From a virus, in IMG/VR virus record IMGVR_UViG_3300023179_006727, positions 1 through 64,000 of that record: 64,000 nucleotides of DNA. One strand, 5' to 3'. The notes beneath the pieces are model-generated. The model saw only the letters and a program-made list of their open reading frames with translations. It was not told the origin of the DNA and made no database searches. Of the stretch, positions 1,625-60,179 are shown one piece after another. Numbering within the stretch: position 1 is the first letter of the stretch; each line of letters opens with the position of its first letter. The position numbers and the translations under genes were made by a program.

Positions 1625-2680
1625 ATGAATCTTCACAAAACCCCAGGCAAACCCATCCGCACCTATGATGAAACAGGACAATGGCGTGATTGGAGCACAG
1701 ATGAACTCGTTGGCGCAAAACTAAATTACTTACAAGGATGGAAATGCGGAGCAGGTGTTGATAGCCTATTTATTGATATGGACGGGTTTATATGGACTGC
1801 TAGCTGCCGTGTAGGTGGTCAACTAGGTAGTGTATGGGATACTTTTGAAGTACCTAATCAATGGATAGATTGTACCAAAAACGTTTGTTCATGTGGTGCA
1901 GATCTTTTTATACCAAAAGCACAAGATGAAAAGAAAATCATATTGTTACGTCAAAGTCAAGAATTAGATACTTTAATGGATAGGCAAAACAATCAGATTA
2001 CCAATTTTGTAGCAATGGAGCGTACACACGCTAGTAACCAAAAACAAATATATTGGGAAATTGGCAGACGTTGTAATTACGATTGTTCTTATTGTTGGCC
2101 TTGGATTCATAACAATACCGATCCACATAAACCATTAGAAGATTTAATTCGAGCAACTAACTTACTTGAAGAAAAATTTATGCATGGTGAAAGCGTAAAT
2201 TTTATCATTAGTGGCGGCGAACCAACTGTTAATAAAGATTTTCTAGATTGGTTACGATATCTTAACGCATTTGGTCATCATATTAGTTTACATAGTAATG
2301 GATCACGTAAACCTGATTATTATCGTGAAGTTATACATTATGGTGATTTAAACTTATCAGTACATTTTGAGTTTTATGATCGAGCAAAATTTGTTAAAGT
2401 GGTAGAAGCTGTAACAGATGAAAAATATAAAAATAACAATTATAATGTAGGGCATCTTGAAGTAAAGTTTATGATGCCTCCACAATATGTTGAAGAATCG
2501 CTTTCATTAGAGGCAGAGTTAAAACAAATACCACACTTTACAGATTTTTGTACATGGGCTTTTGTTCCTATTCGTGGTGGTATGAGTAATAAATTTTCTA
2601 AACCCGAAGATGATAGTGGTGCTGAAATTATGGAAGGATATGCACCTGAGCATTATGTGCTTTTTGGTGATCGTAAATGA
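1625..2680 (+). CDS. Radical SAM protein with N-terminal Cys-rich (twitch/SPASM-like) domain
   Basis: The 351-residue product has the radical SAM cluster motif C150-x3-C154-x2-C157 followed by an S-G-G-E-P motif, so it should bind a 4Fe-4S cluster and S-adenosylmethionine. The N-terminal 100 residues hold a second Cys set: C41, C61 and then C-T-K-N-V-C-S-C at 83-90, around a D-M-D-G segment. The same domain sits at the C-terminus of the protein encoded at 9106-10077, so the two proteins have permuted domain order. A late promoter box lies just upstream, and the stop overlaps the next ATG (ATGA). The substrate is unknown; peptide or protein modification is common for radical SAM proteins with auxiliary clusters, but this is inference. 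Confidence 0.85.
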   Translation: MNLHKTPGKPIRTYDETGQWRDWSTDELVGAKLNYLQGWKCGAGVDSLFIDMDGFIWTASCRVGGQLGSVWDTFEVPNQWIDCTKNVCSCGADLFIPKAQDEKKIILLRQSQELDTLMDRQNNQITNFVAMERTHASNQKQIYWEIGRRCNYDCSYCWPWIHNNTDPHKPLEDLIRATNLLEEKFMHGESVNFIISGGEPTVNKDFLDWLRYLNAFGHHISLHSNGSRKPDYYREVIHYGDLNLSVHFEFYDRAKFVKVVEAVTDEKYKNNNYNVGHLEVKFMMPPQYVEESLSLEAELKQIPHFTDFCTWAFVPIRGGMSNKFSKPEDDSGAEIMEGYAPEHYVLFGDRK

Positions 2681-4032
2681 TTCCAATATATCCTGATCGA
2701 CCTAATACATTATGTAATTATGCGTGGGATTACTTAATGTTTTATATTAGCGAACCAAGTTTCACTTACTGTTGTCGAACATCAAGGAAAAGAATTACTC
2801 CTGAATTATATCAAGCATTTGGTAGTGAATTATTTTCTAATTTACCTGAGCATATTGACCGTAGAAAGAGTTTACTTAATAATGAGCAGCATAGTGATTG
2901 TCATACGTGTTGGAGTTTAGAAAATAATGGGTTTAAAAGTGCACGTAATGATATAAACTTTGAAGGCTACATGGAACGTAATATGGGTATTATACCTAAA
3001 TCTAAGAGTGACTTAGTGAACAATCCACAATTACAGTTATCCACATATGCAAATATAATAGAAATTGTTTTAAACAATACATGTGATGCTAAATGCACTT
3101 ATTGTAGTGAACATTATAGCACACAATGGTATGCAGAAAAGAAAAAATACAACATACCAATGACAAGGGAAAGTAGTCAACTTGGCGAACGTGATCCAAA
3201 AGCTGAATATTACTTTTGGAAATGGTACGAAGAAGTTGGCATGCAAAAACTATTTCGTTTTGGATTTATTGGTGGTGAACCATTAATAACTGATTTGATT
3301 TATGAATGTTTTGACAAATTAATAGAAATTCATGAAAAAAATCCAAGAATAGAGTCTGTTCGTAATATGGGTAATGGCGATTATTTAGATAAAGTTGAGT
3401 TATGTATTACTACTAATCTTAATACTCCTGAATCGTATTTTAAAAAGTTCTTAGAATATTTGCCTAGATTACAACAGCATTTTAACATTATCATTCAAGT
3501 AAGCAGCGAAAATGTTGGAGAAGAATTAGAGTATATCAGGTATGGTGTTAAATGGAATCGATTTAAAAATAATTTAGAAAAGTTGTTTAGTTTACCTGAT
3601 TTAGTTACTATTTCGTTTATGCCATGTTTAAATTTACTTGGATTGCCATCTTTATACAAGTATGTTGAATATTTTAAACAATGTAATGAAAATTATTATC
3701 CATTTTCTATTCATCGCAATATTGTAACTTGGCCCAAAGAACAAAGCCCAATGTCTGCACCAAAAGAATTTGCAAGATATTTAGATAAACCAATCGAAAT
3801 ATTTGAAGAATTAATTAATGACCCAAAATATAAAAAAGCCAAACCTCATCACAATTGGGAAGTATTTAGAGATTTCTTAATCCAAACACGTGAAGCGATT
3901 GAAAATAATCCTCCGATGGATAATATGCAAGATAAAGGTGAAGAAGTGCTGATATTTTTTGAAGAATTAGATCGAAGAAGAAATACGAATTTTATAAAAA
4001 CATTTCCTGAATTTAAAGAGTGGGTTTTATAA
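2677..4032 (+). CDS. Radical SAM protein, N-terminal twitch type
   Basis: The 451-residue protein has a radical SAM core with C136-x3-C140-x2-C143 and a G-G-E-P motif near residue 200. Ahead of the core is a Cys pattern shared by several neighbours: C13, C32-C33 and C75-x2-C78-W. From memory this resembles the N-terminal twitch radical SAM proteins described from phages. It is most similar to the product of 6537-7952 (shared C-x-x-A-W-D-Y opening, H-Y-S-x-Q-W after the cluster motif). Its start overlaps the previous stop by four bases, so it is probably translationally coupled. Its 3' end overlaps the convergent gene at 4013 by 20 bases. Confidence 0.85.
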   Translation: MIPIYPDRPNTLCNYAWDYLMFYISEPSFTYCCRTSRKRITPELYQAFGSELFSNLPEHIDRRKSLLNNEQHSDCHTCWSLENNGFKSARNDINFEGYMERNMGIIPKSKSDLVNNPQLQLSTYANIIEIVLNNTCDAKCTYCSEHYSTQWYAEKKKYNIPMTRESSQLGERDPKAEYYFWKWYEEVGMQKLFRFGFIGGEPLITDLIYECFDKLIEIHEKNPRIESVRNMGNGDYLDKVELCITTNLNTPESYFKKFLEYLPRLQQHFNIIIQVSSENVGEELEYIRYGVKWNRFKNNLEKLFSLPDLVTISFMPCLNLLGLPSLYKYVEYFKQCNENYYPFSIHRNIVTWPKEQSPMSAPKEFARYLDKPIEIFEELINDPKYKKAKPHHNWEVFRDFLIQTREAIENNPPMDNMQDKGEEVLIFFEELDRRRNTNFIKTFPEFKEWVL

Positions 4033-59649: not shown

Positions 59650-59666
59650 AGATATAAGTAAAATAT

Positions 59667-60179
59667 ATGCCATCTGCTAGTAAAATTAAAGGAAGTTCAT
59701 TTGAGAGGGATATTGCAAAATATTTGTCCGATCTATATAATGAGTCTTTTGTACGTGTTCCAAATAGTGGAGCATTTATTGGTGGTATTAACAAAGATAG
59801 GAAATCTTATTTGCATGAGGGACAGGTTCGCAGTTTTAAGGGAGATATAATTCCTGGGGAATCGTTTCAATTATTAAATATAGAATGCAAAAACTATGCA
59901 GATTTTCCGTTCTATCAAATTCTAACTACATGTAAATTATTAGATGATTGGTTAGATCAATTGATGGATGTAAGTGATAAGGATGATTTGAACGTTCTTT
60001 TTATGAAATTCAATCGTAAAGGTCGTTATATTGCAGTAGAACAAAAACATAAATGGAAAATGAACAATTACTTAGTATATCATAGTGATATATATGGTTC
60101 ATGGATTATCTCAGAATTAGAACATTTTTTTAAATTAAACTCAGGTCTCTTCAAAACTCTCTCCAAAAATAATACTTAG
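59667..60179 (+). CDS. PD-(D/E)XK nuclease, Holliday junction resolvase-like
   Basis: The 170-residue protein has G-S-S-F-E-R (E13), F-K-G-D (D60) and I-E-C-K (E73, K75), the spacing of a PD-(D/E)XK nuclease core as in archaeal-type resolvases and phage recombination nucleases. It follows gp46 by 17 bases and so would act in the same recombination pathway, resolving or trimming branched DNA. The family is inferred from motifs. No ribosome binding site stronger than AAGTAAA is visible. Confidence 0.7.
   Translation: MPSASKIKGSSFERDIAKYLSDLYNESFVRVPNSGAFIGGINKDRKSYLHEGQVRSFKGDIIPGESFQLLNIECKNYADFPFYQILTTCKLLDDWLDQLMDVSDKDDLNVLFMKFNRKGRYIAVEQKHKWKMNNYLVYHSDIYGSWIISELEHFFKLNSGLFKTLSKNNT

Follow-up and report, generated by a model that had tools for sequence, protein, structure and literature searches.

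The window examined here is a 64,000-nt stretch of DNA, the first 64 kb of the 101,734-nt virus record IMGVR_UViG_3300023179_006727, with 33% GC. The record is that of a T4-like jumbo phage and encodes a gp6-like baseplate wedge, a gp55-like sigma factor, and a gp46-like SbcC homolog. Its genes are nearly devoid of the word CTGG except at proline-glycine (Pro-Gly) codon pairs, where CCTGG stands on one strand or the other. Around these sites, the silent positions of the CCTGG strand are shifted to G over about 30 bp, and we refer to such stretches as silent-G islands. The phages bearing the trait form a small freshwater group of jumbo phages, hereafter the clade, represented by eight contigs: the window's own record (G000), G001–G004 (43–158 kb), L015, L233, and L348.

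Expected counts for the window were derived from 100 codon shuffles that kept the protein sequence and the codons. The genes of the window contain CTGG 56 times compared with 269.7 ± 11.5 after shuffling, an approximately five-fold depletion that is far stronger outside Pro-Gly, while CCGG is found once (27.5 expected) and CGCG not at all (21.1 expected). The original prediction, made from the letters alone, had noticed an abundance of CCWGG sites and overlooked the main fact, namely that CTGG is almost banned rather than enriched. In the whole clade, CGCG occurs 0 times versus 314 expected, CCGG 16 versus 373, and CCAG/CTGG 283 versus 1670; the corresponding ratios of observed to expected in AT-rich relatives are 0.52, 1.41, and 0.88. 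Non-coding DNA is purged too, with CTGG/CCAG found 6 times versus 34.7 expected and a control word 51 times versus 34.7. The word thus lies far below an expectation that preserves codons and proteins, as it does in restriction-site avoidance. The clade-specific absence of CGCG and near-absence of CCGG suggest that CTGG is not the sole word under avoidance.

No dipeptide other than Pro-Gly is obliged to contain CCNGG, and for this reason most surviving CTGG lies in Pro-Gly codon pairs. Because CCGG is avoided as well, the pair becomes CCWGG with CTGG on one strand, which holds for 59 of 59 pairs in G000 and 72 of 72 in G003. The surviving sites therefore do read CCWGG, as had been proposed, but the avoided unit is the one-strand CTGG and not the palindrome, since ACTGG is found only 17 times in the clade versus 538 expected. 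The avoidance extends to the proteins: the ratio of observed to expected Pro-Gly dipeptides is 0.64 in the clade versus 0.90 and 1.6 in relatives, and at gp6 columns that are 93–95% Pro-Gly in 75 relatives, most clade members carry Pro-Ala or another pair. CTGG is selected against at the DNA level, strongly enough to alter amino acids. CTGG outside Pro-Gly gathers in the G003 transfer-messenger RNA (tmRNA) and in recently acquired genes without clade homologs, for instance at 14.4–16.0 kb of the window, where islands are weak or missing. No common promoter-like consensus was seen in the leftover CTGG. Despite the avoidance, two non-Pro-Gly CTGG are shared by several clade members (G003 8969 / G002 35088 / G004 66308 and G003 18988 / G002 45107 / G004 57588), possibly constrained by overlapping signals.

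The original prediction had reported about 30 copies of CCTGGG/CCCAGG, each coding for Pro-Gly and together far too many for an AT-rich genome. We counted 32 in the window (18 + 14), including every copy it had placed, and each of the 32 is an in-frame Pro-Gly pair. The excess belongs to the hexamer (32 versus 5.4 ± 2.2 after shuffling) and not to CCTGG (45 versus 46.0 ± 2.8), because the island includes the silent G at +5 (with positions counted from the first C of CCTGG). The strand-directed shift was borne out: CCT-GG is flanked by G-ending codons and CCA-GG by C-ending codons, and islands are present in both orientations relative to coding. On the CCTGG strand of the window, silent G/(A+G) within ~15 nt of CCTGG is 0.679, compared with 0.141 ± 0.025 in the shuffled sequences (maximum 0.188). 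Counting silent transitions around CCTGGG, the same-strand fraction is 0.49 at −20 to −11, 0.69 at −10 to −1, 0.56 at 0 to +9 on the downstream side, and 0.20 at +10 to +19 against a baseline of 0.145; same-strand C/(C+T) is flat at ~0.13, and the opposite strand of CCTGG shows no silent-G shift. When 261 CCTGG sites of the clade are pooled, G is raised from about −16 to +14, with a steep drop past +14 and a weak, slow upstream tail to about −30. At silent island positions, G is preferred to A, T, and C, and C is not preferred to T over most of the range, so that melting or GC content alone is no explanation; plain GC islands could be ruled out on the same ground. A neighbour-dependent mark (GA or GGC modification motif) was also rejected, as no context effect rose above background. 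In an unbiased scan of all 4-mers to 8-mers, CTGG/CCTGG alone came out on top (CTGG z = 22.7, next tetramer 8.9), and among the 256 tetramers CTGG alone shows island behaviour. The sites are listed below by window coordinates and strand; "flipped" denotes an exchange of CCT and CCA in the ortholog.

1633–1661 (−): silent-G island, Pro-Gly, CCAGG 1643 on +
6735–6763 (−): CCTGG Pro-Gly site with flank, core 6745
14419–16038 (−): contrast region of recently acquired small genes, 10 CTGG in 1.6 kb, 9 not Pro-Gly, mostly without islands
17656–17684 (+): silent-G island, core CCTGG 17670
17680–17708 (+): silent-G island, core CCTGG 17694
18380–18408 (−): silent-G island, core 18390
18626–18654 (−): CCTGG Pro-Gly site with flank, core 18636
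18895–18923 (+): silent-G island, core CCTGG 18909
20284–20312 (−): silent-G island, core 20294; missing in orthologs without Pro-Gly
20722–20750 (−): silent-G island, core 20732
21246–21274 (+): silent-G island, core CCTGG 21260; flipped in ortholog G004
21412–21440 (−): silent-G island, core 21422
23207–23235 (+): silent-G island, core CCTGG 23221; flipped in G003
27348–27376 (−): silent-G island, core 27358; flipped in G004
27801–27829 (−): silent-G island, core 27811
28050–28078 (−): silent-G island, core 28060; missing in orthologs without Pro-Gly
28689–28717 (−): silent-G island, core 28699
29651–29679 (+): silent-G island, core CCTGG 29665; missing in orthologs without Pro-Gly
30608–30636 (+): silent-G island, core CCTGG 30622; flipped in G003
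32826–32854 (−): CCTGG Pro-Gly site, no same-strand island (0/3 silent sites), core 32836
36512–36540 (+): silent-G island, core CCTGG 36526; flipped in G004
37022–37050 (+): silent-G island, core CCTGG 37036
38468–38496 (+): silent-G island, core CCTGG 38482; missing in orthologs without Pro-Gly
40233–40261 (−): silent-G island, core 40243; flipped in G004, lost in G003
40503–40531 (−): silent-G island, core 40513; in the ortholog comparison
40641–40669 (−): silent-G island, core 40651; flipped in G003
40967–40995 (+): silent-G island, core CCTGG 40981; in G003, CCT stands between C-type flanks and may be an intermediate
43173–43201 (+): CCTGG Pro-Gly site with flank, core 43187
44718–44746 (+): silent-G island, core CCTGG 44732
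45646–45674 (−): CCTGG Pro-Gly site with flank, core 45656
46453–46481 (−): silent-G island, core 46463
47340–47368 (+): silent-G island, core CCTGG 47354
47721–47749 (+): silent-G island, core CCTGG 47735
48387–48415 (+): silent-G island, core CCTGG 48401
48649–48677 (−): silent-G island, core 48659
49362–49390 (+): CCTGG Pro-Gly site with flank, core 49376
50988–51016 (+): CCTGG Pro-Gly site, weak flank (1/4), core 51002
51048–51076 (+): silent-G island, core CCTGG 51062
51262–51290 (−): CCTGG Pro-Gly site with flank, core 51272
53588–53616 (+): silent-G island, core CCTGG 53602
53637–53665 (−): CCTGG Pro-Gly site with flank, core 53647
54008–54036 (+): silent-G island, core CCTGG 54022
54194–54222 (+): CCTGG Pro-Gly site, weak flank (1/6), core 54208
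59839–59867 (+): silent-G island, core CCTGG 59853

Codon-aligned orthologous genes of G000, G001, G003, and G004 serve as a natural experiment. At 62 flips between CCT and CCA, where both orthologs encode Pro-Gly, the coding-strand fraction of G at third codon positions (G3) is 0.71 versus 0.17 and that of C (C3) 0.21 versus 0.66. In 31 + 42 cases only one ortholog has Pro-Gly; the flanks of the other lie close to background (G3 0.17 and 0.11, C3 0.29 and 0.20), compared with 0.74 G3 or 0.67 C3 in the site-bearing partner. Since flips switch the strand and losses erase the island, the island is tied to the site and its strand and not to the gene region. Codon preference alone is insufficient, as the original prediction had argued, because the island swaps with CCT and CCA in orthologs and the depletion of CTGG reaches non-coding DNA (6 versus 34.7).

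Depletion and islands occur jointly in 8 of 8 clade contigs, and all of the roughly 310 relative loci lack them. Neither trait is present in 75 gp6 relatives (about 55% identity), in 80 loci with a 78–90% identical major capsid protein, or in 156 of the 160 additional loci that were retrieved blind with two other genes; the four positives among these 160 were two known records and the new clade members L233 and L348. Three long relatives (223–303 kb) are normal and lack the trait. A generic scan of 73 trait-less loci for other words gave nothing comparable. One trait-less relative, L141, has G-ending and C-ending codon patches around TGGGG/CCCCA at 11161–13994, with no word clearly depleted; the pattern is mostly limited to its GC-rich 11–14 kb stretch. 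Burkholderiales contigs show neither host-side CTGG depletion nor islands.

The loss of CTGG, CCGG, and CGCG against a codon-shuffled null, clade-specific and in both coding and non-coding DNA, resembles the avoidance of palindromes and k-mers by phages that face restriction. What differs is a second layer, the one-strand silent G over about 30 bp at protein-forced sites. The literature that we searched holds no description of strand-polar silent-G shielding at forced sites, and such shielding of protein-forced sites appears to be undescribed. The surviving sites read CCWGG as do those of Dcm/EcoRII and of Vsr very-short-patch (VSP) repair, but the avoided unit here is CTGG with any 5' base, whereas a palindromic CCWGG would leave CTGG without the 5' C neutral, contrary to the counts of ACTGG. 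Vsr repair would make, not remove, CCAG/CTGG, and we know of no silent-G island in the Dcm/EcoRII/Vsr systems. The closest precedent for flank-dependent cutting is GajA of the Gabija defence, whose 15-bp, near-palindromic site has a CCNGG core with any centre base tolerated and whose cleavage needs AT-rich wings (PMC8136825). This core is the very word that Pro-Gly must contain. Unlike GajA, however, the clade avoids CTGG without a preceding C, the effect is strand-polar and reaches about 15 nt on each side, and G and not C seems to help, so that a symmetric CCNGG core with AT-rich wings does not describe the pattern. The GajA site being symmetric and shorter, the likeness is one of behaviour and not of membership.

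We consider it rather probable that 5'-CTGG-3' is made costly by an agent that acts sequence-specifically on the double-stranded DNA of the phage, most likely a restriction-type defence of a Burkholderiales host, and that the Gs disarm the forced sites. The asymmetric word would be harmful to the clade through this agent, and CCGG and CGCG might be costly too, whether through this agent or through others. CTGG has been eliminated wherever the sequence allows, by the choice of silent letters and in part by that of amino acids. At the forced Pro-Gly sites, every silent G between about −16 and +14 on the CTGG strand might weaken the recognition or action of the agent and thereby lower the harm of CTGG. 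Such an agent could be a defence enzyme of the host that covers about 30 bp and reads mainly one strand. The host group, placed to the level of the order, is likely Burkholderiales, judging from a permuted tmRNA and from carried host-type genes that are 77% identical to those of freshwater Burkholderiaceae. A host-type block in L095 (G003 80001–100000), at 4509–13848, comprises a PnrA lipoprotein, AhpC, a Na/H antiporter, TerC, and a DAO oxidoreductase together with the permuted tmRNA; the block is already purged of non-Pro-Gly CTGG, the tmRNA excepted. Burkholderiales DNA has 52–73% GC and would, at such a composition, be naturally G-rich around CTGG.

Several points weigh against this proposal. 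Our search did not turn up the responsible agent, the putative protection by G is deduced from evolution, and to our knowledge no enzyme combines the word CTGG with an activity set by the G content of one strand 15 bp away. C is also somewhat raised at +5 (0.39) and +8 (0.34) in the clade pool, and a few Pro-Gly sites have no island. Furthermore, the orientation CCT or CCA is not chosen for most possible Gs, with a slight opposite trend (p = 0.01), although the flips are old, as silent sites are near saturation.

The agent might instead be the phage's own, either a nuclease or a DNA-binding protein for takeover, whose target would be CTGG in G-poor DNA and from which the phage genome would have to be exempt. 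The trait sharply tracks one phage clade, as a clade-specific gene would, and G003 has several endonuclease-like genes. Nevertheless, such self-avoidance seems unlikely, because most CTGG of the GC-richer Burkholderiales DNA would be shielded, making the host a poor target. A clade-conserved HNH-like protein of 114 aa was ruled out as the agent by its homologs in many trait-less relatives, the phrog_1314 HNH likewise occurs in trait-less relatives, and no further candidate was found in the clade records, which are themselves incomplete. We assign a similarly low probability to the idea that bases of the phage DNA are partly modified, either G or the C of the other strand, with silent Gs adding modified bases that block a CTGG-specific nuclease. 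This would account for G counting whatever its neighbours, and for the one-strand effect if the nuclease contacts one strand. However, no TGT/DpdA, thymidylate-synthase/hydroxymethylase, or C5-methylase family was found in the incomplete 43–158 kb records, and PF01702 (DpdA/TGT-family transglycosylase, 7-deazaguanine modification) had no match in five incomplete records.

The original prediction had suggested a process recognising the site, such as repair or recombination with local synthesis. Recognition at the DNA level with a strand direction stands, but the idea that the islands were written by local synthesis, repair, or recombination finds no support. A targeted mutation or conversion (deaminase, error-prone patch synthesis, or VSP-like repair) that recognises CTGG and writes G on its strand would fit islands that are strand-polar, site-centred, and fading with distance, and the pattern at two-fold sites equals A→G on one strand. 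We still judge it quite improbable. The base composition of codon positions 1 and 2 near the sites equals that far away, amino-acid identity is 0.65–0.80 near shared sites versus 0.70–0.81 in the rest (0.76 overall), and at four-fold sites T→G is no rarer than A→G (27 and 19 cases). Targeted mutagenesis by a deaminase, a diversity-generating retroelement, or VSP repair would touch all codon positions with one class of base change, which is not the pattern found; an adenine deaminase or local repair is ruled out by the same three observations. Mutation would also leave the loss of CTGG outside Pro-Gly unexplained, as well as the replacement of conserved Pro-Gly by Pro-Ala. The unchanged amino-acid identity and positions 1 and 2, together with the frequent T→G, therefore indicate selection on silent sites and not a mutation patch. 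At the silent first position of leucine codons, CTN versus TTR strongly follows the predicted direction around antisense sites (0.77 versus 0.24). Each forced site has some nine silent positions at which G on the CTGG strand is selected, and from the rise in odds from about 0.17 to about 3.5 we infer a scaled selection of about 3 per silent position.

CTGG in a G-rich context could also be a beneficial site, Chi-like or for loading, with bare CTGG avoided as a decoy. The Chi sequence is GCTGGTGG, which the strand-polar, G-rich context resembles, and the sites occur about every 1.7 kb in G000. Yet they stand essentially only where the protein forces them, both orientations are used equally, and Pro-Gly itself has become rarer, with Pro-Ala taking its place at conserved columns, which means that the site is unwanted; we hold this idea to be very unlikely. 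A translation effect, with host-preferred GC-ending codons around slow Pro-Gly pairs, would suit a host that is likely GC-richer but has almost no chance of being correct, because islands are G-ending or C-ending and never both (sense sites G3 0.80, C3 0.10; antisense sites G3 0.13, C3 0.72) and non-coding DNA is depleted of CTGG too.

Other features of the window include seven radical-SAM genes in a row at 1625–10077, several with SPASM domains and partly kept in G003, and one open frame of 6306 aa at 22338–41258 (−) with 62–77% identity within the clade. The gp55-like late sigma factor at 54547–56430 (+), 627 aa, is split by an insert that resembles an intein and contains a LAGLIDADG domain; its G003 ortholog (36366–37289) has 307 aa and no such insert.

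A bolder reading, which we hold to be rather unlikely, goes further. There might exist a DNA-targeting defence that combines a 4-base word with a one-strand guanine gauge over about 30 bp, sparing a GC-rich host and hitting AT-rich invaders, against which these phages could camouflage each unavoidable site with host-like G on the strand that is read. Restriction avoidance is usually described as the loss of words, whereas the forced sites here also record the strand, the reach (about −16 to +14), and the preferred base. Genome statistics thereby become the footprint of an uncharacterised DNA-targeting activity and specify exactly the substrates with which to look for it. In any phage collection, the same test can be applied by comparing silent composition, according to distance and strand, around each avoided word.

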